Assembly (NCBI RefSeq): GCF_900167915.1
Contig: NZ_FUYM01000001.1
Span: 682,001 to 746,000 of the forward strand
Direction of reading: 5' to 3'
Origin: Rhizorhabdus histidinilytica
GTDB taxonomy: Bacteria > Pseudomonadota > Alphaproteobacteria > Sphingomonadales > Sphingomonadaceae
Length of the DNA: 64,000 bases
Position 1 is the first letter of the stretch; each line of letters starts with the position of its first letter. Below, piece after piece: positions 18,725 to 41,459 of the stretch. The notes below the pieces were generated by a model. The model did no database searches. It saw only the letters and a list, made by a program, of their open reading frames with translations, and had not been told where the DNA came from. A program made the translations under genes and the position numbers.

Positions 18725-19001
18725 CGGGGCTTTCCGCGCTCTTATCGATCACTTCACGCCGGATCGTGTTGATCACGTTCAGCGGATTGTCGGCATCGCC
18801 CGCGACTTGCATCGGCAGCACCTTGCCTACCAGCGTCATGAACGCGGCGGGGTTTGCCTTTGCCTGGTCGGCGAGGTACGTTTGCCCTCCAGCGTCGTCC
18901 AACGCGCCTAGGATCATATCCTTCAGCGCTTTCGTGACCTTGTTGGGCGTGCCTTTCTGGCGACCGCCGGTCTTTTGCCTACCCGTCTCTAGTTTAGACA
19001 T
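18717..19001 (-). CDS. Probable terminase small subunit
   Basis: A 94-residue basic protein, MSKLETGRQKTGGRQKGTPN followed by a helical domain. The Gly/Lys-rich NKVTKAL start and the LVGKVLPMQV segment resemble DUF5681-like small subunits. It sits immediately before the large subunit with an 8-base overlap. The AGGAGG ribosome site six bases before ATG 19001 sets the start. DNA recognition of the pac or cos site would be its job. Assignment is mainly by position. Confidence 0.65.
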   Translation of the reverse strand: MSKLETGRQKTGGRQKGTPNKVTKALKDMILGALDDAGGQTYLADQAKANPAAFMTLVGKVLPMQVAGDADNPLNVINTIRREVIDKSAESPDA

Positions 19002-28274: not shown

Positions 28275-28471
28275 TCCCCCTGCTCCCTGATGATCCGCAG
28301 CGCTTCACGCTGTTCATCTGAAAGACCGTCGTGATCTTCGGGATCGAGTTCGTCGGCGCGGGTCAGCATCCACATGGCTGCGAACCACAGGGCGATCGGG
28401 TAAAGGATGATCGCGCATCCCGCCGCTGCGAGACGGTCGGCTTCGGTCCAGATGATGGGGAGCACGGTCAT
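28271..28471 (-). CDS. Small membrane protein
   Basis: A 66-residue protein with one or two hydrophobic segments (AAAGCAIILYPIALWFAAMW) and an acidic tail (DELDPEDHDGLSDEQREAL). It is the second gene of the leftward early operon, right after the Cro-like gene, a position often taken by exclusion or host-takeover proteins. Function is unknown. Confidence 0.55.
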   Translation of the reverse strand: MTVLPIIWTEADRLAAAGCAIILYPIALWFAAMWMLTRADELDPEDHDGLSDEQREALRIIREQGE

Positions 28472-28677
28472 GCGGCTGCCTGCGGCGCGCGTTGGTACTC
28501 CGCCATAAAACGCATCAGCCGCTCGGCATTCCTGAGCGTCAGCGAACGTCCATTGCGGAGATTGCTGACGAGGTTGCCATCACCTAGCGCGTCCAACCCT
28601 AAGCGCGTGGGCTTGATGTTGGTATCGGCGATGAAGGCGTCGATTGCCTGCAAAAGCTCGGCGTCGGTCATAAGCAT
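28468..28677 (-). CDS. Cro-like small helix-turn-helix regulator
   Basis: A protein of about 69 residues, the first gene leftward of the switch. The core TNIKPTRLGLDALGDGNLVS (about 18-37) followed by NLRNGRSLTLRNAERLM is the helix-turn-helix and dimer layout of Cro/CI proteins, and it resembles the N-terminal part of the repressor encoded divergently. It would repress the repressor promoter and favour the lytic course. The ATG at 28677 lies only about 8 bases after the -10 box, so the mRNA may be leaderless; ATG 28671 is the alternative. Confidence 0.7.
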   Translation of the reverse strand: MLMTDAELLQAIDAFIADTNIKPTRLGLDALGDGNLVSNLRNGRSLTLRNAERLMRFMAEYQRAPQAAA

Positions 28678-28684
28678 GACCAGA

Positions 28685-28713
28685 TTGATAAGATATTTCT
28701 GATTACATGGCAA
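28685..28713 (-). promoter_or_regulatory. Leftward early promoter (PR-like) with operator in spacer
   Basis: On the minus strand TTGCCA (28713-28708) and TATCAA (28690-28685) are separated by exactly 17 bases. A palindromic operator (28689-28702) covers the spacer and the -10, so bound repressor would block RNA polymerase. It would drive the Cro-like gene and the whole leftward early operon. Confidence 0.6.
28689..28702. promoter_or_regulatory. Repressor operator site 1 (TAAGATATTTCTGA)
   Basis: Matches 12 of 14 positions of the perfect palindrome at 28722-28735. It lies in the spacer of the leftward promoter. Confidence 0.6.
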
Positions 28714-28721
28714 CCATTAGA

Positions 28722-28735
28722 TCAGATATATCTGA
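28722..28735. promoter_or_regulatory. Repressor operator site 2 (TCAGATATATCTGA)
   Basis: A perfect 14-base palindrome, 33 bases from site 1, between the divergent regulator genes. It overlaps a possible rightward -10 box (GATATA, 28725-28730) preceded by TTACAT 16 bases upstream. Confidence 0.65.
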
Positions 28736-28757
28736 ATTGGCTCTCGCGCGCCTGCCG

Positions 28758-28771
28758 TGGGATATTTCTCA
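28758..28771. promoter_or_regulatory. Weak repressor operator site 3 (TGGGATATTTCTCA)
   Basis: Matches the palindrome at 10 of 14 positions, 36 bases from site 2 and just before ATG 28773. It is the weakest of the three and may be chance. Confidence 0.35.
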
Positions 28772-28772
28772 C

Positions 28773-29264
28773 ATGGCGAAGTTCCAGAAACCCGATGTGC
28801 GGCCGCAAGTTCTGCGTTTCATGGCGCGCTTAGATGAAATACGTCCTGACGACCTGAAGGACTCGGAACACTGCAAGCTTGCCAAGGTGAACAGCAATTA
28901 TTTGCAGAACCTGCGTGAGGGCAAAGAACCAGGATTGTTCAAGGCGGACCGCCTTGCCAGTGTCGCAGGTGTCACACTGGCCGAGCTTATGGAGGGGGTG
29001 GGTAGACCATTTTGGCCTAATGCAGAGCAGCTCGCCTCAATGATCGATCGGGCAATGGGAGAGATTCCCGCCATTGCGACGCGCGCGGAGATGCCGCGAT
29101 ACGTCGCCCAAGGTCTTCTGAAGCGGCTAGAGCGATTTCGATCTCACGGGATAATTGACGATGACGATGAGGATATAGGCTCCGCTCCCGATACGCCCGC
29201 TCCAACTCCGACCGCCACCACTGAAGGCGCTCCGGCAGAACCGCGCATTCAAGCGAACAAGTGA
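28773..29264 (+). CDS. CI-like phage repressor, short form without peptidase domain
   Basis: A protein of about 163 residues with an N-terminal helix-turn-helix (DLKDSEHCKLAKVNSNYLQN, then LREGKEPGLFKADRLASVAG) and a disordered C-terminus rich in Asp, Pro and Thr. It has no S24 LexA-like domain, so RecA-driven self-cleavage is not expected, and induction must work another way, such as an anti-repressor. It would bind the TCAGATATATCTGA sites. The start at 28773 is preferred because operator 2 and a plausible -10 box lie downstream of the other possible start at 28707, which would add 22 residues. No clear ribosome site precedes either. Confidence 0.7.
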   Translation: MAKFQKPDVRPQVLRFMARLDEIRPDDLKDSEHCKLAKVNSNYLQNLREGKEPGLFKADRLASVAGVTLAELMEGVGRPFWPNAEQLASMIDRAMGEIPAIATRAEMPRYVAQGLLKRLERFRSHGIIDDDDEDIGSAPDTPAPTPTATTEGAPAEPRIQANK

Positions 29265-29497
29265 CACATCCAACCTCGCACGCAGGCTCGCGCAGCAGTA
29301 GCTCCTTAGCCATCGACTCGACCCTCCGTTCCATGTTTGTTCTCATAACGGGCTCCCTGAGTCGAGATTGTTTTTCCTATAATTTTCCTATCGGGTGCGA
29401 ATGGGCCAGCTTCGTTAGGAAAGCTTACCCAAAGGTTAAAGGTCCGAATTCGACCGATTTCCGGCATCGCAACGGCCATTAAAACGGGGTGGGTGGG

Positions 29498-29680
29498 ATG
29501 ATCTGGGCGCCGACGATTCTTCAGCGCGTCATCTTCGGTTTTGGAGCTGTCGGCTGCTTTCTGTGGGCGCTTCAGCGACCGGGCCACGGGTCGGGCGATG
29601 TGTTGCCAATGGTACTATTTGTGGCCGCGACCGCTCTCGGCTACTTGGCGGCGTGGCCCATGGCTCGCGAGCGAGATTGA
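29498..29680 (+). CDS. Small membrane protein
   Basis: A 60-residue protein starting MIWAPTILQRVIFGFGAVGC with two hydrophobic segments. ATG 29498 follows a GGGGTGGGTGGG ribosome site. The 233 bases before it (29265-29497) hold no convincing gene; they include a TATAAT (29377-29382) that may be its -10 box, without a good -35. It is placed after the repressor, a typical spot for genes expressed in the lysogen. Confidence 0.5.
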   Translation: MIWAPTILQRVIFGFGAVGCFLWALQRPGHGSGDVLPMVLFVAATALGYLAAWPMARERD

Positions 29681-29766
29681 TCTCCCGCGACCGTTTTGGA
29701 CATGAAATCATTTGACGACTCGAAGGACGGTGGCGACAGCGAGTGTGTAGTCAGGGTGGATAGCGT

Positions 29767-30579
29767 ATGTTCCAGACGGCCATAAGCCTGCTCGATCGCC
29801 AACCCAAAGAGATCGCGGGCTCCAATATCGTACTGCCCACCGGCAGCGGTCTATCGGCTCAATGGAAGACCCAGCAGGAAGGCTCGATCTCTCGATACGA
29901 GAGTGAAAGCTATGAGGCGGACCGGACCATCTCGATGCTGTTCGGTGGCTTCATCGCCACTACGCTCGACAAGCAATATCCGGTGCTCGACGTGGGCTGC
30001 GGCCTGTTTCGAGAACTGCCCTCCTATGTGAGCGACATGGGGCTGCGCAGCTACATCGGCATGGAGCCGCTGGAGGTGATCGTCGAGCGCGACTATCCGT
30101 GCCTGGTTGGCTCCGTCGCGGAGGATATTCCACTTAAGGATGGCAGCATCGGGGCCGCGATCTTCGCGACATCGCTCGATCATATCGAGAAGCCGGAAGT
30201 CGCAATCAATGAGGTCCTACGCGTCCTTCGGCCCGGTGGTAGCCTCTATTTCTGGAATGGTCTCTACGACCCGCATATCCTTGCCGAGCAAAAGACGTTC
30301 GGCAATATCCTCAACCATTCGCGCGGCCTGAAGCGAGCGCTGCGGGTGCTCGTACCGCAGATCGAATATGCTGTCCTGCTGCGACGAATGTGGAACCGCA
30401 AGCGCGACCTGGCGGCCGGCCGGCCGCTGGACCACGCCCACTATCGCTATTTCACGCAGGCCAAGATCCAGGCGGACATGGAATCCTATGGCCTACGGAT
30501 CGTCCGGCAAGTGTTGGTGCCTGGGAGCAATTCCCATTTCTCGGAATGCAAGCCGATCAAGCGCGTAGCGTCGCGATGA
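29767..30579 (+). CDS. Class I SAM-dependent methyltransferase (cargo gene)
   Basis: A 270-residue protein with the Rossmann methyltransferase core: motif I VLDVGCG (73-79), an acidic residue after YIGMEP, motif GSVAEDIPLKDGSIGAAIFA and post-motif LRVLRPGGSLYFW (about 153-165). This is the Methyltransf_11 layout used on small molecules, lipids or sugars rather than DNA. Residues 175-230 are basic and may contact a membrane or glycan. Lying by itself between repressor and lipoproteins, it is probably expressed in the lysogen and might modify surface polysaccharide to block superinfection; this role is inference. Confidence 0.75.
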   Translation: MFQTAISLLDRQPKEIAGSNIVLPTGSGLSAQWKTQQEGSISRYESESYEADRTISMLFGGFIATTLDKQYPVLDVGCGLFRELPSYVSDMGLRSYIGMEPLEVIVERDYPCLVGSVAEDIPLKDGSIGAAIFATSLDHIEKPEVAINEVLRVLRPGGSLYFWNGLYDPHILAEQKTFGNILNHSRGLKRALRVLVPQIEYAVLLRRMWNRKRDLAAGRPLDHAHYRYFTQAKIQADMESYGLRIVRQVLVPGSNSHFSECKPIKRVASR

Positions 30580-30609
30580 TCAATCCTGGGGTTAAAGGGG
30601 GAGGGATTT

Positions 30610-30834
30610 ATGCGCGGCATGTTCCTTGTGGGTCTATTAATGCTCGGCGGGTGTGCGCCAACGATCAAGGCAAATAACGAGCTGGGCGGGATCATCGATC
30701 TTAAGGTAGGGCATCGAGAAAACGCCGGCCTCGCCCTCGCAGATGCCGAATGCCAGAAATACGGGAAGCGAGCTCGGATAACGAACAACGACGAATGGAC
30801 CGGCCAGATGCGCTATGAGTGCGTCAAACCTTGA
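30610..30834 (+). CDS. Small lipoprotein
   Basis: A 74-residue protein with a lipoprotein signal: MRGMFLVGLLMLGGC, where the lipobox LGGC gives Cys15 as the mature start. The remaining 60 residues include a DAECQKYGKRARI and MRYECVKP pair of cysteines that could form a disulfide. It is followed by a second lipoprotein, so the pair probably forms an operon. Outer or inner membrane location; immunity or exclusion is possible. Confidence 0.65.
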   Translation: MRGMFLVGLLMLGGCAPTIKANNELGGIIDLKVGHRENAGLALADAECQKYGKRARITNNDEWTGQMRYECVKP

Positions 30835-30848
30835 AAAATGGGGCGCAA

Positions 30849-31148
30849 ATGCGGCGGGCGGGCTTGCTGTTGGGTGTCCTGACATTGGCCGGATGCGACG
30901 GGCTCAAGTTGAACAAGGTCCAGCGCGACCAAGTTTATGAGATATCTGAAACCGTGGCGTCGGCCCAAGCCATCCGACAAGCTGAAACGGAGGGCGGCCT
31001 TTCAACGCGAGTCACGGACCTTGAGAACCGCGTGAAGCTACTCGAAATGCGGGCGAGCGAGAACGACAAGGAGCATAAGCTGATAGCCACGTCCGTCGAC
31101 CGCTTCGCTGGAAAATACAACGAGCATATCGAGACGATGCACCGCTGA
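30849..31148 (+). CDS. Lipoprotein with coiled-coil body
   Basis: A 99-residue protein starting MRRAGLLLGVLTLAGCDG, a lipoprotein signal with Cys16. The mature part is a charged coiled coil (TRVTDLENRVKLLEMRASEN). ATG 30849 follows GGGGCG and lies 14 bases after the previous stop, so the two lipoprotein genes are likely cotranscribed. Similar to spanin-like or Lpp-like small lipoproteins, but no family can be named. Confidence 0.65.
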   Translation: MRRAGLLLGVLTLAGCDGLKLNKVQRDQVYEISETVASAQAIRQAETEGGLSTRVTDLENRVKLLEMRASENDKEHKLIATSVDRFAGKYNEHIETMHR

Positions 31149-31247
31149 CCCTATCCCCTAGGACTGAGGGTGGGGAGTAAGTCGAATTGGATGCGTTATG
31201 ACTCGACTCTGGCGGGGTGTTTGGTAGGTTCTCGCCCGGAGATTTTC

Positions 31248-31541
31248 ATGGACGATGACGCGGCTGCGGAAGATTTTTATGCGGACACCATGGCGCGTTA
31301 TCGCCACCGTGATGTCCCGACCATTTATGCGGACGGTATACTCGGGCATGCATCCGCAAATGGGGTCCATCGGTTGACTTTCGTGCAGCAGATTTTCGAC
31401 CACACGCCTGGGGCAACCCAGACGGCGATCGTGCCTGTCTTGGTGCTGGCTTATCCCACTGAGCAATTAGTGGGCTTGGCGCGTAGCGTTATCGAGTTTC
31501 ATGAAAACCTAGCCAGAAAGAATGTCGAAAATGCTGAATGA
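31248..31541 (+). CDS. Small protein of DUF3467-like form
   Basis: A 97-residue protein starting MDDDAAAEDFYADTMARY. The core VPTIYADGILGHASANGVHR followed by VPVLVLAYPTEQLVGLARSV resembles the short DUF3467-type proteins, a weak match judged by eye. GGAG seven bases before ATG 31248 sets the start, and the longer frame was rejected. A 7-base hairpin (31540-31556) follows the stop. Confidence 0.55.
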   Translation: MDDDAAAEDFYADTMARYRHRDVPTIYADGILGHASANGVHRLTFVQQIFDHTPGATQTAIVPVLVLAYPTEQLVGLARSVIEFHENLARKNVENAE

Positions 31542-31556
31542 GAGCATTCTGCTCTC
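31540..31556 (+). terminator. Short hairpin after 31541 stop
   Basis: GAGAGCA and TGCTCTC form a perfect 7-base stem with a 3-base loop just at the stop of the upstream gene. No T run follows, so it is a weak terminator or an mRNA stabiliser. Confidence 0.35.
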
Positions 31557-31722
31557 GCGTGCTGGCTTCCAAGCGCCGGCCCGAGCATCGAACACGCCCA
31601 AGTCGGCAAATGCCCATTTCGGGAGAATACCATTCGCCGGGCTCTCAACCGTCTCTGTAAATTTGGCGTCTGCATACGTATATAAGGGGCAGACGGATCA
31701 GCGGCTCGCGACTCCACAGGAT

Positions 31723-31938
31723 ATGAGGATCGAAGTGACGAATGCTCGGGAGGATAGGGCTCTCTGCTTAGCTGCAACGCTGAGCGCAGCCTTTTTCGTC
31801 CTAGCGCTGATCGCCGCCGGCCTCTCGTTTGTGCCGCGCATATCGGAAATATCCAAGACCGCCGGGCTCGTTTTGCTGCTCATTTGCATATACTTCGCCA
31901 GCTCGGCGTCTGACCTGGCACGCGATGATGGCGAGTGA
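31723..31938 (+). CDS. Small membrane protein
   Basis: A 71-residue protein starting MRIEVTNAREDRALCLAATL with two hydrophobic segments. A longer frame opens at 31522, but its first 67 codons run through the hairpin and look non-coding, so ATG 31723 is preferred. Two membrane proteins in a row (this and the next, overlapping by 14 bases) suggest a pair that acts together. Confidence 0.5.
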   Translation: MRIEVTNAREDRALCLAATLSAAFFVLALIAAGLSFVPRISEISKTAGLVLLLICIYFASSASDLARDDGE

Positions 31939-32149
31939 CGCCAATACCAAATTCATCAAAAAGGCGATAAAGAACTCATCCAAGCTTTTTTGGCGAGGCG
32001 TGGGCGGCTTGGTCGCCGCCGCGCTCGTATACCGTTTCCTACCCGATACCGATGAGACTCCAATCATCGTGATGAAATGGCTATTGGTCGCCGTAGCGGC
32101 AGGGAGCGCTGGAGCGACATTGATAGGCATTTTCGCCAAGGGCAAATAG
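31925..32149 (+). CDS. Small membrane protein
   Basis: A 74-residue protein starting MMASDANTKFIKKAIKNSSK with a basic first third and two hydrophobic segments (GGLVAAALVYRFL and WLLVAVAAGSAGATLIGI). It overlaps the previous gene by 14 bases, which supports translational coupling. Role unknown; superinfection exclusion or holin-like function are candidates. Confidence 0.5.
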   Translation: MMASDANTKFIKKAIKNSSKLFWRGVGGLVAAALVYRFLPDTDETPIIVMKWLLVAVAAGSAGATLIGIFAKGK

Positions 32150-32158
32150 CGCAAGGCC

Positions 32159-32560
32159 CTAACACCCCCTCAACCGCCCTCCCCGATCGAATTTCTCCCA
32201 TCGCACCGCGACGCCGGCCCGGATCGCCAAGCACGACAGGTCGCGGCCGTCTGGTAGCGTCGCCCAGGCCGTGACGCGCGTGTAGCTTTTGCGTATCGGC
32301 TCATAGGTCAGCCGCACGGGCTCGGCGAAATAGATCTGCCCTCCATTCGGTGAGCGTGTTTCCCGCGCGATCGTAGCCCCCATGGCCCCTGCCATCCGCC
32401 GCCGTTGCTCGATCGGATCACCGGGCGCGCAGGGCTGGTTTGGCCGACACGTCCCATCCATCTCCAATGCCCCAATGCCTTGCAGGCGGAGCTTCGTGCC
32501 GTCTGCGCAGTGGATGGGGCCGTCAACGTCGTGGAGGGCGATGGCGAGGCAAAGCAACAT
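32159..32560 (-). CDS. Staphylococcal-nuclease-like (thermonuclease family) protein
   Basis: A protein of about 133 residues on the opposite strand to its neighbours. The pattern DGPIHCADGTKLRLQGIGAL-EMDGTC and later TAWATLPDGRDLSCLAIRAG, VAVRWEKF follows the thermonuclease family scheme with Arg after the first acidic cluster and a late Ala-Gly-Val-Ala strand. MLLCLAIAL at the start may be a short signal sequence, which would place it in the periplasm. Start uncertain; ATG 32560 is the last start before the core. Codes alone on its strand, as expected for a separately acquired cargo gene. Confidence 0.6.
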   Translation of the reverse strand: MLLCLAIALHDVDGPIHCADGTKLRLQGIGALEMDGTCRPNQPCAPGDPIEQRRRMAGAMGATIARETRSPNGGQIYFAEPVRLTYEPIRKSYTRVTAWATLPDGRDLSCLAIRAGVAVRWEKFDRGGRLRGC

Positions 32561-32640
32561 CACGGGCGAACTCGCATCATTCTGTGTCAGACTCGACTCT
32601 ACCTGACCAAGCGGTAGCATTTGGGGCGAGGGGGAATCAC

Positions 32641-33456
32641 ATGAGCAACGCAGCGTCAGAAGATGGAAGTGTTGCGCTTCCTCCAAGCGCGTTACTCAAG
32701 TTACGCCGTGCCGACCAGCATATCAGCGATCTTGTTGGGCTAGTCGATGCATTTCTTGACGAACGCCCGTTCAAGTTGATCCGCCGCTTCGATCCAGATA
32801 CTGGCGACCTGACGATTTCGATTAAGCAGGAGAAGCCCACGCCAGATATCATCCCGCTCACCTTGGGCGACGCCCTACACAATCTCCGTTGCGTATTAGA
32901 CCACACCTATTTCGCCATTATCAGTCGACATACCCACAGGCGCGATAATATTCAGTTCCCGATCTACAGGCCAGAAATCAAAGAGAGTGTGTTGGGGCGT
33001 CGCCTCATAAAGCTGACCACGAAGGAGGTCGGTAGTGCTGTTGAAGCTTGTGAACCTGAGCCCGGCGGCCGCTACGGCATCTATGAACTCGATGCCATTG
33101 ACGTTGAAGATAAGCATCGGGTCCTGCTCATCACAGCTAGGGGCGTAGATATTCCGGCGCAACTTTTCAACTTTATCGCCCCCGAAGCTGGCTTGATCAT
33201 TACCGGACCTGGCATAGTCCGCTTCGCTGGCGGCGATGGCGGTGAGGATAATTATATCTTTAGCGTCCCCCTTCCCCCATCGCATCCCACAGCCCAATCT
33301 GGCGCAATCGAAACGGACATTCCCGTGCGGGTAAAGTTTGCTCTTACCTTCGGAGATGGGCCATTCGCTGGCACAGATATAATCCCTAAAGTCGCTCAGC
33401 TCCGCACGCTCATTGAAGAGGCTGCTTCCAGCATCTGGCGAGCGGCCAATCCCTGA
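32641..33456 (+). CDS. Unknown protein with HEPN-like segment (cargo gene)
   Basis: A 271-residue soluble protein starting MSNAASEDGSVALPPSALLK. The segment LGDALHNLRCVLDHTYFAII (about 79-98) matches the NLRxxLDH pattern common in a broad group of uncharacterised bacterial proteins that fold like HEPN helices, with the HNL and LDH residues conserved. The rest is beta-rich. A strong ribosome site (GGGGCGAGGGGG) sets the start. The promoter and operator block begins right after it. No biochemical role is known. Confidence 0.6.
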   Translation: MSNAASEDGSVALPPSALLKLRRADQHISDLVGLVDAFLDERPFKLIRRFDPDTGDLTISIKQEKPTPDIIPLTLGDALHNLRCVLDHTYFAIISRHTHRRDNIQFPIYRPEIKESVLGRRLIKLTTKEVGSAVEACEPEPGGRYGIYELDAIDVEDKHRVLLITARGVDIPAQLFNFIAPEAGLIITGPGIVRFAGGDGGEDNYIFSVPLPPSHPTAQSGAIETDIPVRVKFALTFGDGPFAGTDIIPKVAQLRTLIEEAASSIWRAANP

Positions 33457-33496
33457 AGCCGCTTCCACGGCATTATCAGCGCGCGAATCAAGAACA

Positions 33497-33510
33497 TCAG
33501 ATTTTTCTGA
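33497..33510. promoter_or_regulatory. Repressor operator at second locus (TCAGATTTTTCTGA)
   Basis: Matches the CI/Cro-region palindrome (28722-28735) at 13 of 14 positions. It lies just upstream of the rightward promoter at 33519-33547. Confidence 0.6.
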
Positions 33511-33518
33511 TTTTAATG

Positions 33519-33547
33519 TTGACGATAAGAAATATCTGATCCATACA
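33519..33547 (+). promoter_or_regulatory. Rightward early promoter with operator in spacer
   Basis: TTGACG (33519-33524) and CATACA (33542-33547) are separated by 17 bases. A second operator fills the spacer (33526-33539). It would drive the rightward operon from 33677 to the integrase, silent in the lysogen. Confidence 0.55.
33526..33539. promoter_or_regulatory. Repressor operator at second locus (TAAGAAATATCTGA)
   Basis: The reverse complement, TCAGATATTTCTTA, matches the perfect palindrome at 12 of 14 positions. It lies 29 bases from the other site, inside the promoter spacer. Confidence 0.6.
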
Positions 33548-33676
33548 ACCTCCATCACCTGACCTGCCCCGGCACGCGAGACGGTGAACAAGCGCTCTCC
33601 CCCAGACCGCTTGGAGCAATGGCCCGACGCTCTCCATGCCCCCTCGGATGAGCGTCGGGCCGAAATGGAGGATGAG

Positions 33677-34147
33677 ATGGATACCAAGCAGATTATCGAA
33701 GTGAATGGCGTGAAGCTCGAAGTTGACCTGCGCACCGCGCGCCGGATCGAGGAGCTTCAGGTCGGTAGCCGCGTCAAGGTTCTCGACAGCACTGGGTACA
33801 GCGGCGCTCAGGTTTATCCCGGCATCATCGTCGGGTTCGAGCCCTTCAAGGAACTTCCGACGATCATAGTCGCCTATGTGAAGGCGGAATACAATGATGT
33901 TGGGCTGAAGACCATCAGTTACAACGCCAAGACCGAAAAGGTCGAGATCGTCGCCAGCATCGACGATGACTTCAGCGTCTCCAAGAAGGAGGTGTTGGGA
34001 TGGTTCGACCGTGAAGAGCAGAAGGCGCGCAATACGCTCGCCGAGATCGCGGCCAAGCGCGAATTCTTCCTCGATCGCTTCAAAGCCTATTGGCGTGATG
34101 AGCCTCTTGTCGACGCGATGACCAAGGACGGTCTCGCGACCGCCTAA
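33677..34147 (+). CDS. First gene of rightward operon, conserved phage protein
   Basis: A 156-residue protein starting MDTKQIIEVNGVKLEVDLRT. The region VGSRVKVLDSTGYSGAQVYP followed by GIIVGFEPFKELPTIIVAYV looks like a KOW- or SH3-like beta barrel, with a helical C-terminal half. Related proteins occur in other phages but lack an assigned role. GGAG six bases before ATG 33677 sets the start; an in-frame ATG at 33665 is an alternative. It is the first gene after the repressor-controlled promoter, hence an early gene. Confidence 0.65.
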   Translation: MDTKQIIEVNGVKLEVDLRTARRIEELQVGSRVKVLDSTGYSGAQVYPGIIVGFEPFKELPTIIVAYVKAEYNDVGLKTISYNAKTEKVEIVASIDDDFSVSKKEVLGWFDREEQKARNTLAEIAAKREFFLDRFKAYWRDEPLVDAMTKDGLATA

Positions 34148-34200: not shown

Positions 34201-35442
34201 ATGGCGAAGATCATGAAGCTCACGCCGGAACAGGAGGCCGAGCTTCCCGCATTCAGGCAGAAATATCTGGACATAGCATGCGGCGGTTTGCGGATTAATC
34301 GCGAGAAGCTTCAAGGCCATCTGAACGATGCCTATGCGTTAATCGGTAAGCCTGCACCCGCGCTGTTCATCTTCGATAGCCCTGCTGCTTGCATGCTGGC
34401 GATTAAGATATTCAAGATGGGCGAGAAGGGGTTGAGCCAGCTCTACAGCCAGCTCCGCAGCCAGCTCTACAGCCAGCTCGGCAGCCAGCTCGACAGCCAG
34501 CTCTACAGCCAGCTCTACAGCCAGCTCCGCAGCCAGCTCTACAGCCAGCTCCGCAGCCAGCTCTACAGCCAGCTCGGCAGCCAGCTCGACAGCCAGCTCT
34601 ACAGCCAGCTCTACAGCCAGCTCGGCAGCCAGCTCGACAGCCAGCTCTACAGCCAGCTCGGCAGCCAGCTCTACAGCCAGCTCCGCAGCCAGCTCGGCAG
34701 CCAGCTCGACAGCCAGCTCTACAGCCAGCTCTACAGCCAGCTCCGCAGCCAGCTCTACAGCCAGCTCGGCAGCCAGCTCTACAGCCAGCTCTGCAATGAG
34801 GGTCTATGGGAAGGCGGCTACCTCTGGGGGGCCCTCGACCTCTATTGGCTGGCGTCCTGCCGGTTCGGCCAGAAGATTGGGGCTCGATATGACGAGGATA
34901 GTGCTCGGCGCCTCGACATCATGGAGGGCATTTCCTCACAGTGCGGATACTGGTGGCCGTTCGAAGGTATCGTCATTGCCTCGGAAAAGCCGATCAGGGT
35001 TCGTTGGGATGACAGCAGACTACTTCACGGCGAGACGGGTCCGTCCGTTGAATGGGCGGACGGCTATGCACTTCACACATGGCATGGACAGTCGATACCC
35101 GCCGCGTGGGTGACCGATAGACCGCCGACACCGGCCGAGGCCCTGACCTGGGAAAATCTCGACCAGCGCGCAGCCGCCTGCGAGATCATCGGATGGCACC
35201 ATATCCTCGATGAGGTGGGTGCGGTCACGCTCGACGACAGCGGCGACCCAGCCTGGGGTAAGCTCGTAGAGGTCAACCTGCCCGATAACGGACCACAGCG
35301 CATGCTTGATGCGATGTGCGGTACGGGCCGCCGGTTCGCGCTGCTTGTCCCCAACTCCGTCGCCACAGTCGATGAGGCTCAGTCTGAGCTGCACGGCGGT
35401 ATCCCCGCATCGATCCTCCGCAACTGCCACGAAAGGACCTGA
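34201..35442 (+). CDS. SQLx tandem-repeat protein (DUF6745-like C-terminus)
   Basis: A 413-residue protein in three parts: a helical N-terminal head (1-78), thirty back-to-back SQLx tetrapeptides (about 79-198), and a C-terminal domain with RLLHGETGPSVEWADGYALH and WHGQSIPAAWVTDRPP, a pattern that resembles DUF6745 proteins. In the repeat the variable residue is only Tyr, Arg, Gly, Asp or (once) Cys. Similar SQL repeats occur in front of this C-terminal domain in other bacterial proteins. Gene start ATG 34201 is chosen over an upstream frame. Function unknown; the repeat should build an elongated rod or solenoid. Confidence 0.7.
   Translation: MAKIMKLTPEQEAELPAFRQKYLDIACGGLRINREKLQGHLNDAYALIGKPAPALFIFDSPAACMLAIKIFKMGEKGLSQLYSQLRSQLYSQLGSQLDSQLYSQLYSQLRSQLYSQLRSQLYSQLGSQLDSQLYSQLYSQLGSQLDSQLYSQLGSQLYSQLRSQLGSQLDSQLYSQLYSQLRSQLYSQLGSQLYSQLCNEGLWEGGYLWGALDLYWLASCRFGQKIGARYDEDSARRLDIMEGISSQCGYWWPFEGIVIASEKPIRVRWDDSRLLHGETGPSVEWADGYALHTWHGQSIPAAWVTDRPPTPAEALTWENLDQRAAACEIIGWHHILDEVGAVTLDDSGDPAWGKLVEVNLPDNGPQRMLDAMCGTGRRFALLVPNSVATVDEAQSELHGGIPASILRNCHERT
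34435..34794 (+). repeat. Tandem array of thirty 12-base repeats (SQLx)
   Basis: Thirty copies of AGCCAGCTCnnC, where nn is TA, CG, GG, GA or (last copy) TG. Nine of the twelve bases plus the last C are invariant at DNA level, so synonymous drift is nearly absent. Order of the variable residues is Y R Y G D Y Y R Y R and so on, with larger blocks (such as YGDYY) reappearing. This points to recent expansion by slippage or unequal crossing-over. Confidence 0.9.
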
Positions 35443-40107: not shown

Positions 40108-40425
40108 ATGACCGGTCAAGCCGAGCGCATTCCGATCGCTCAGGCTGAGTTGATAACCGGGCTCCCCCGGCGCACCTTGCAGAGCTTGGCCGCGCGCGGG
40201 GAAGTCTGGAGCGCGGCGAAGCTGGGACGCGGATGGACCTTTAACGAACAGAGCTTGCGAGCATGGATAAAGGCAAAGGAAAACGCGGTGGGGAGCCGGA
40301 AAACCTCTACCAGCGCGAGAACGGCATTTGGTATGGCCGTATCACCGTCGATGGGCGTGATCTCCGAAAGTCCCTTAAGACGCGCAATCGAAAAGAAGCT
40401 GAGAGACGCCGCGAAGCTTGGCTGA
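40108..40425 (+). CDS. Excisionase-like small DNA-binding protein
   Basis: A 105-residue protein. The first 52 residues (PIAQAELITGLPRRTLQSLA, then RGEVWSAAKLGRGWTFNEQS) are a MerR-type winged helix as in excisionases and HTH_17 proteins. It would bend att DNA and direct excision. The last 54 codons are shared out of frame with the integrase start (40263-40425), so the C-terminal part is of doubtful meaning. Confidence 0.7.
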   Translation: MTGQAERIPIAQAELITGLPRRTLQSLAARGEVWSAAKLGRGWTFNEQSLRAWIKAKENAVGSRKTSTSARTAFGMAVSPSMGVISESPLRRAIEKKLRDAAKLG

Positions 40426-41354
40426 AGGAGAACAGCCCGTACAAGGGCACGGTCCGCCATACCTTTCAGGAGGCATCCGTACTGTGGCTGGAAGCTGGAG
40501 AATGGAAGCCCAAGACCCTCGAAGGCTATGCGAAGCTCCTGAAGGGCGTGGAGGCGCATTTCGGAGCGATGTTCTGGGATCAGGTCAACAAGGCTGAGCT
40601 ACAGCGCTTCATCGCGGCCCGGCGCCTGGCGGGTTCCGGCACCGCGACGATCAATCGCTACCTCACGGTCATATCGGGCATTGCCGACCACGTGCGCGAG
40701 CTGCCGGGATGGCCCGACCTCAACCCGGTAAAGCTGCTTCCGGTAAAGCCGCGCAAGGAAAAGCGGCATCCCTATATTCGTCCCCCGGCATCGCACATCG
40801 AGGCCTATTTCGCCCGCATGCGAGGCACCTTCGGGGACCTGTGCAGGTTCGCATTGGAGACAGGCGCTCGGAAGGATGAGATCACCACATTGAAGCGCCA
40901 CGACGCGGACGGCGGCAAGGCGCAGTTGTGGCGGACCAAATCGCACTTCCGGGTTATCTCACTGTCGCCAGTGGCTCGCGCCATCGTTGAACGGCAGCCG
41001 GCCGGGAGGTCGGATTACCTGTTCGAGACGAGTAACGGCGACCGGTACAAGCGCGTCACTGAGATGTGGCGCGAGGTGGTGAACCGGGCACAAATGATGG
41101 CACAGCGCGAAGGGCGCGCATTGGTCCCGATGCGCTTCCACGATCTGCGCCATGAGCACGCCATCCGCTACCTGGAGAACGGCGGGAATATCTACACGTT
41201 GAAAGAGCGGCTCGGGCATTCCACAATCCGCCAGACTGAGGAATATTTGCGCTACCTGACCCCGGAGCAAGCAGCTATAGCAAGGGGGCAGAGCGGCACA
41301 AATCACGGCACACACGCAACAGTTTCTGTAGACGGTGAGAGGGAATTAGTCTAG
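40263..41354 (+). CDS. Tyrosine site-specific integrase
   Basis: A 363-residue tyrosine recombinase. The N-terminal arm-binding part (ENLYQRENGIWYGRITVDGR) is followed by a core-binding helix region and the catalytic domain, with Arg203, Lys226, the box HDLRHEHA (His293, Arg296), His319 and Tyr328, so all active-site residues are present. It ends 15 bases before tRNA-Ser(UGA), the likely attachment target. Its start overlaps the excisionase-like gene by 163 bases in another frame. The integrase sits on the 5' side of the tRNA gene, opposite to the usual arrangement. Confidence 0.92.
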   Translation: MDKGKGKRGGEPENLYQRENGIWYGRITVDGRDLRKSLKTRNRKEAERRREAWLKENSPYKGTVRHTFQEASVLWLEAGEWKPKTLEGYAKLLKGVEAHFGAMFWDQVNKAELQRFIAARRLAGSGTATINRYLTVISGIADHVRELPGWPDLNPVKLLPVKPRKEKRHPYIRPPASHIEAYFARMRGTFGDLCRFALETGARKDEITTLKRHDADGGKAQLWRTKSHFRVISLSPVARAIVERQPAGRSDYLFETSNGDRYKRVTEMWREVVNRAQMMAQREGRALVPMRFHDLRHEHAIRYLENGGNIYTLKERLGHSTIRQTEEYLRYLTPEQAAIARGQSGTNHGTHATVSVDGERELV

Positions 41355-41369
41355 AGTTTACGGGCTTTC

Positions 41370-41459
<90 letters not shown>

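Follow-up and report, generated by a model that had tools for sequence, protein, structure and literature searches.

In the immunity region of phage lambda, a −35 element is found between two operators, one of which fills the spacer of the promoter. Its operators are organized in two sets of three, which are described to be located about 2.3 kb apart (PMC5880393). Repressors with different properties are described for the Gifsy prophages, where they are non-cleavable and become inactivated by antirepressors (PMC3121763), and control at the level of translation is described for gene e of phage T4, where the RNA resulting from read-through folds over the ribosome-binding site and the RNA initiated at the late promoter lacks the 5′ strand of this structure (PMC3014915). 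Here we analyze a 64,000-nucleotide stretch of the genome of Rhizorhabdus histidinilytica (positions 682,001 to 746,000 of contig NZ_FUYM01000001.1), referred to as the window, in which positions 28685 to 33547 carry copies of a palindromic element at two distant predicted promoters. Judged from its sequence, this region is very likely the immunity region of a prophage, where a single short CI-like repressor would bind palindromes of 14–16 bp at both promoters.

The region resembles the lambda immunity region in combining one repressor and two operator clusters with a divergent Cro-type gene and in placing the repressor gene between the clusters. It also shares the −35 element located between two operators, an integrase operon on one side and accessory genes between the clusters (cI-rexA-rexB in lambda). 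In contrast to lambda, two sites are recognized in the second cluster, the two clusters are separated by 4.8 kb, a leader structure is predicted at the second promoter and the repressor does not contain a Peptidase_S24 (S24) domain, for which reason neither self-cleavage nor oligomerization through this domain can be assumed.

Putative palindromic operators at two predicted promoters

Three of the sites, termed O1 to O3, are located between the gene of the short CI-like repressor and the divergent Cro-like gene and carry the letters TAAGATATTTCTGA, TCAGATATATCTGA and TGGGATATTTCTCA. A first-pass annotation of the window had described O2 (28722–28735) as a perfect palindrome of 14 bases, which was borne out in the sequence, in a pattern search and upon recounting, and this palindrome serves as reference for the matches of all other sites. 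O1 (28689–28702) agrees with it at 12 of 14 positions, as initially counted, and O3 (28758–28771), which had been recognized as a weaker copy, at ten; the latter ends one nucleotide before the repressor ATG, at a position that is kept in relatives. In the second cluster, O4 (33497–33510), located upstream of the rightward −35 element, and O5 (33526–33539) each match at 12 positions. This corrects the 13 matches previously assigned to O4, whereas the count for O5 was accurate and only its labelling as complement adds nothing, because the reference is itself a perfect palindrome.

At both predicted promoters, the operators overlap with promoter elements. On the reverse strand, the −35 hexamer TTGCCA (28708–28713) and the −10 hexamer TATCAA (28685–28690) constitute a putative leftward promoter resembling PR and, on the forward strand, TTGACG (33519–33524), located between O4 and O5, and CATACA (33542–33547) constitute a putative rightward promoter resembling PL. 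The proposal that one operator is placed in a 17-base spacer at either promoter is accurate for the length of both spacers and for O5, which is wholly contained within it, but less so for O1, which occupies the larger part of the spacer and extends by two bases into the −10 element. A generic promoter scan listed neither of the two and instead found two others, compared to 3.2 expected by chance, and the promoters alone would thus prove little. Leftward transcription would be expected to start seven bases past the −10 element at 28678, one base ahead of the first ATG of the Cro-like gene, whose mRNA may therefore be nearly leaderless. The idea of a leaderless mRNA also concerns the repressor, where a GATATT at −12 of the start was noticed by eye in the window and in one of the related loci introduced below (L043) only.

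When allowing up to three mismatches, the 14-mer is found at six places in the window compared to 0.78 expected, a number that was reached in none of 100 shuffled sequences. With up to two mismatches, it occurs at eight places in the whole genome, which comprise the reference, three of the sites described here and four places elsewhere, and not the many further matches that the first-pass annotation had named as an argument against a dedicated operator. Of these four places, the fourth being on contig C36, the three that were inspected (two on contig C28 and one on C11) are all contained in long coding frames. A 16-base version of the motif, ATMAGAWWTWTCTGAW, by construction fully matches four of the operator sites and has no additional place with one mismatch in the 5.47 Mb genome. 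The pair of operator-like sites on C28 was considered as indication of a second prophage and rejected, since both sites are part of the coding regions of two paralogous genes (G000:C28:124296 and 139719, L041), where the codons of the shared peptide DNRQKYLMFV mimic the operator. In one of these paralogues, an N-terminal segment matches the Cro-like profile (E 5e-9).

Recurrence of the layout in related loci

Relatives of the region were reached via the Cro-like gene and subsequently via profiles of the helix-turn-helix (HTH) domain of CI. At a loose cut-off, the Cro-like profile matched in 303 of 397 genomes, including proteins of about 430–500 residues, and the top phage-like matches were used. 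The resulting sample consists of 13 distinct loci, namely the window, L008, L009, L043–L047, L057, L058, L061, L062 and L064. Removed were duplicates (L056 and L060 of L045, L063 of L058, L065 of L009 and L069, whose CI is the same as in L064), entries of the window's own prophage (L001, L003–L007, L010, L040 and L066) and short copies of L043–L047 and L045 (L011–L015 and L055). Scoring for a second cluster was confined to these 13 loci and excluded the Cro-profile matches L016–L039 and L048–L054 as well as L059, where 22 residues were matched.

Wherever the sites are readable, three of them are found at the junction between the CI and Cro genes. Their motifs are versions of TTGGAAATTTATCA in L043 and L008, TCAGCGNNCGCTGA-like in L047 and TCGGANNNNTCCGA-like in most of the loci whose repressors contain an S24 domain. 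In 7 of the 13 loci, the third operator ends one base ahead of the repressor ATG, and from this location at the start codon, the repressor would probably also control its own expression. For the identification of second clusters, a matrix derived from the CI-Cro sites of each phage alone was run over the whole locus and evaluated against 300 simulated sequences. In this way, a second pair of sites around a TTGAC was found automatically in ten of the 13 loci, including the window, where the best pair outside of the junction is the one at 33497 and 33526, at +4724 from the repressor ATG. The corresponding offsets are +1448 in L043, +2166 in L045, +1530 in L047, +1808 in L009, +1856 in L057, +3644 in L058, +1925 in L061, +2086 in L062 and +1742 in L064. 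The respective score was reached by none of the simulations in nine of the ten loci and by one in L009. An earlier search of seven loci with sites set by hand had located a second pair in five of them, with none of 500 simulations attaining the score of the window. If two loci recognized by eye are added to the ten, the second pair is found at the same relative place in all 12 testable loci, in each case with a TTGAC between the two sites, 2–4 bases before the second. Its distance to the repressor start is 1.2–3.6 kb in the relatives compared to 4.7 kb in the window. In the four phages with clearly diverged motifs (window, L043, L045 and L047), the second cluster fits the matrix of its own CI-Cro junction best out of 11. 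The letters of the predicted operators vary between phages at a constant layout. The sites, the promoter-like hexamers, their arrangement and their recurrence with phage-specific motifs can all be read from the sequence and its comparison between loci. Together, the HTH domain of the repressor, the divergent Cro-like gene, the 12 testable loci, the four matches to the own motif, the integrase past the second cluster and the variable length of the interval support the initial suggestion that the short CI-like repressor would control the leftward early operon and also the rightward one in analogy to PR and PL.

Several observations weigh against this reading. The rightward −10 element CATACA is a poor hexamer, and the leftward hexamers around O1 show at least seven of 12 consensus letters in no more than 8 of 12 loci. 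In three of the 13 loci (L008, L046 and L044), the automatic search was unsuccessful and gave wrong sites, and with hand-set sites the score was reached by 40 of 500 simulations in L046 and 91 of 500 in L008. The layout in L044 (at about +1.6 kb) and L046 (+1166) was recognized by eye and after the fact, and in L008 the contig ends too early for a second cluster, 1,341 bases past the repressor ATG. In the other seven loci, which share similar motifs, the own matrix ranks 2, 3, 3, 4, 6, 6 and 6 out of 11, with the row of L058 having used a site that is one base out of register, and the co-variation therefore rests on the four diverged phages. Of the more distant CI relatives, three are without a clear module and one is doubtful (L067, L068, L070 and L071). 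Finally, past the second cluster an integrase is encoded on the same strand and was detected above the Pfam cut-off in the window, L043, L062 and L057, but the one of L009 is below this cut-off and the stretch of L047 is without an integrase domain, with a tblastn match at 30% only.

A trivial origin of the second cluster, as leftover or as site of a host regulator that by chance has its motif in common with the first, could be invoked because short AT-rich palindromes arise by chance and 14 other places in the genome are within two mismatches of the 16-mer. We regard it as extremely improbable, as neither the 300 nor the 500 simulated sequences contained a pair scoring as high as the one in the window and as this pair recurs around TTGAC with letters specific to each phage. 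A stronger contender, to which we assign somewhat less than an even chance, holds that the sites are mainly those of the Cro-like protein, or that this protein shares them with CI, as found in lambdoid phages. Consistent with such a role, the structure predicted for the Cro-like protein is helical and has look-alikes among HTH-type proteins, and its gene adjoins the sites in a set of loci. The location of O3 at the start codon of CI is in turn most simply explained by autoregulation by CI, and a sharing of sites would leave the logic of the two promoters unchanged.

In the preferred reading of one repressor acting on two operons, the CI-like protein of 163 residues would bind to palindromes of 14–16 bp. 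Binding to the three sites at the junction would switch off the leftward early operon, which contains the Cro-like gene and replication genes, and it would probably tune the expression of the repressor itself. Occupation of the two sites 4.8 kb away would switch off the rightward operon ending in the integrase, and the cargo in the interval would probably be expressed in the lysogen. In this scheme, we infer that CI is the binder and that its binding equals repression, as we do for the expression of the cargo.

Repressor, cargo genes and prophage

The open reading frame of the repressor extends from 28707 to 29264 on the forward strand, with its start most likely at 28773, directly past the third site as in relatives. 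The predicted structure of the resulting protein (28773–29264) contains a lambda-type HTH domain and folds residues 1–73 into five helices, which are followed by two further helices and a tail of low confidence. Its top match in Foldseek is the DNA-binding HTH domain of DdrO (E 9.9e-3, probability 1.00), with no match below 0.001, and a profile built on the CI proteins of eight loci matches solved HTH domains of the XRE/CI type with a best E-value of 0.00019. Apart from the HTH fold, we found no match to lambda repressor. Close relatives of the repressor were absent from the phage collection, from 298 genomes of the family other than its own and, in a pattern search, from the genome contigs, and those in IMG/VR were restricted to the own prophage. 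The divergent Cro-like gene (28468–28677, reverse strand), with which the leftward early operon begins, encodes a protein of 69 residues with a predicted four-helix fold (predicted local distance difference test score of 88). Homologues in L008 and L009 share 51 and 53% of identical residues and are found at the same divergent position. A Cro fold is weakly supported, as the Foldseek matches of the model to HTH regulators, which include the N-terminal domain of lambda cI, are weak (best E 0.29).

The repressor does not belong to any Pfam family and lacks the S24 domain, which is present in all nine long repressors tested (L009, L045, L046, L047, L057, L058, L061, L062 and L064). The domain was also not found by Pfam in the repressors of L043 and L008. 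By its domain content, the window repressor is thus outside the self-cleaving CI family, so that a lambda-like self-cleavage is not expected and induction of the window prophage by this route appears unlikely. In not being of the self-cleaving kind, it resembles the repressors of Gifsy-type prophages. Unlike in the latter, no antirepressor gene or candidate was found in the window prophage, and its LexA-type boxes are at chance level (two found compared to 1.53 expected). One of these boxes, GTTCN7GTTC at 29328–29342 just 3′ of the repressor gene, was considered as induction signal and rejected for the same reason.

The claim that about 4.8 kb of cargo separate the two promoters is supported, and the interval between repressor and second cluster varies between 1.2 and 4.7 kb among the loci. 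In the window, about 4.2 kb extend from the end of the repressor gene to the second cluster, compared to one to a few genes in relatives. The cargo (29489–33456) consists of a methyltransferase (29767–30579), two small lipoprotein-like genes, several membrane or uncharacterized genes and one gene on the opposite strand (32159–32686, phrog_18798). A look-alike of the latter was seen by eye at 322–747 of L019, beside a different CI-Cro pair. The rexAB genes occupy the corresponding interval in lambda, which makes cargo expressed in the lysogen the natural reading, and by this analogy the genes of the window would probably be expressed in the same state. The interval differs between phages, with a HIRAN-domain gene (PF08797) directly before the second cluster in L061 (9994–10392), look-alikes of it recognized by eye in L045, L009, L062, L064 and L057, which are phages with S24 repressors, and none seen in the interval of the window. 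In L043 the interval contains a MerR-type gene and in L047 a gene with matches to TerB and WYL below the cut-off. A role of the cargo in defence was considered and found no support in PADLOC, which returned no match for the eight open reading frames tested; the only matches, which were weak, concern a repeat protein at 34201–35442. This DUF6745 protein contains 29 SQL[Y/R/G/D] tetrapeptides, with repeats at about 34434–34790 that are encoded by near-identical units of 12 bases. The rightward operon starts with phrog_15098 (33677–34147, forward strand), to which no function is assigned, and ends with a tyrosine integrase (40263–41354, forward strand).

The window covers most of a prophage, whose terminase, portal and tail proteins as well as primase are encoded on the reverse strand, in a host from the family Sphingomonadaceae. 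A 43-bp attachment repeat (41369–41411, forward strand) is located in the 5′ half of a tRNA-Ser gene (41370–41459), and its exact second copy starts at G000:C24:677726, 4.3 kb to the left of the window, placing the size of the prophage at about 45.6 kb. The repeat spans the 5′ half and not the 3′ end of the tRNA, which is intact at the integrase end. An IMG/VR contig carrying identical repressor and Cro-like genes corresponds to the own prophage. Among 50,697 phage records, no near relative at the DNA level was detected with positions 19000–42000 of the window as query, the tRNA-Ser being the sole match.

A predicted leader helix and its implications

Directly past the −10 element of the rightward promoter, we find a leader (33549–33671, forward strand) in which CCUCCAU (33549–33555) is predicted to pair with AUGGAGG (33665–33671), the Shine-Dalgarno sequence of the ATG at 33677, and which contains a perfect inner stem (33621–33632/33650–33661). 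In relatives too, the helix begins directly past the −10 element of the second promoter. The leaders of 12 loci were folded up to the first start codon and compared with 200 dinucleotide shuffles each. All are more stable than the mean of the shuffles (z −1.9 to −6.2), with at most 9 of 200 being as stable. Promoter-initiated RNA was modelled as starting seven bases past the −10 element, at inferred positions, for which 33554 is predicted in the window. In all 12 loci, the computed accessibility of the Shine-Dalgarno sequence is lower in RNA originating upstream than in promoter-initiated RNA (mean 0.15 compared to 0.41), with values of 0.02 and 0.71 in the window, and the gain upon loss of the upstream strand is at least 0.18 in eight of them. 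The 12 bases past the −10 element pair with their own pre-start region better than with permuted partners (0 of 20,000 permutations being equal, and 1 of 20,000 when L043 is left out). As these bases include some that are kept in promoter-initiated RNA, the result argues for the helix and not for a read-through logic. In 11 of the 12 folds, the Shine-Dalgarno region lies wholly or partly within the 3′ strand, with L043 as exception. When upstream strands were shuffled, the effect was clear in the window, L045 and L044 (2, 3 and 1 of 150 being as low), and in the window, L044 and L061 none of the 11 upstream strands of other phages hides the site equally or better.

The genes of repressor and cargo are oriented in the same direction as the rightward operon, with one opposing cargo gene, and transcriptional read-through would thus express lytic genes in the lysogen, which would be prevented if the leader folded in read-through RNA alone. 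We tentatively propose a second layer of control, in which the leader of a read-through transcript hides the ribosome-binding site of the first gene and the RNA started at the promoter does not. A family of temperate phages of Sphingomonadaceae would in this way lock its early promoter twice, with operators stopping initiation at the promoter on the integrase side and the leader helix, with its 5′ strand at the start site or slightly upstream, blocking the translation of read-through RNA, thereby insulating a cargo of 1–4.7 kb. The predicted logic is identical to that of the T4 gene e leader, but the structure described here is a prediction only and lies beside operators, at an early promoter that is repressed in temperate phages. 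We place this proposal somewhat below an even probability and not higher because the gain in accessibility is negligible in four of the 12 loci (at most 0.09 in L043, L047, L061 and L064). It is further weakened by the controls with shuffled upstream strands, where the effect is weak in L043 and L009 (10 and 12 of 150), not significant in L057, L064, L058, L047, L062 and L046 (20–43 of 150) and absent in L061 (96 of 150), and by the upstream strands of other phages, of which 8 of 11 in L047 and 6 of 11 in both L062 and L064 hide the site equally well or better. That the hairpin instead serves as RNA stabilizer, antitermination element or protein-binding site approaches an even chance in our assessment: much of the stem persists in promoter-initiated RNA of the four loci with negligible gain, and seven of the loci, taken singly, show no significant effect in the control with shuffled prefixes. 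Such functions would not by themselves account for a 3′ strand that covers the Shine-Dalgarno region wholly or partly in nearly all structures and co-varies with it, nor for the large change in its predicted accessibility in the window.

In the open-access literature, we recognized, among the matches listed, no description of the switch of this prophage family or of a leader of this kind at an early promoter of a temperate phage. Our analysis offers a predicted switch for a prophage lineage that has no near relative at the DNA level among the phage records searched. It places the slot for cargo genes precisely and indicates that repressors without a self-cleavage domain keep the operator layout. 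The naturally matched variants of repressor and operator could be used to study how specificity diverges in phage immunity. The leader provides a proposed reason why lysogenic cargo can precede a lytic promoter of the same direction. If true, its insulation would co-vary phage by phage like the operators and would allow the insertion or exchange of cargo between the repressor and the early promoter without waking the prophage.

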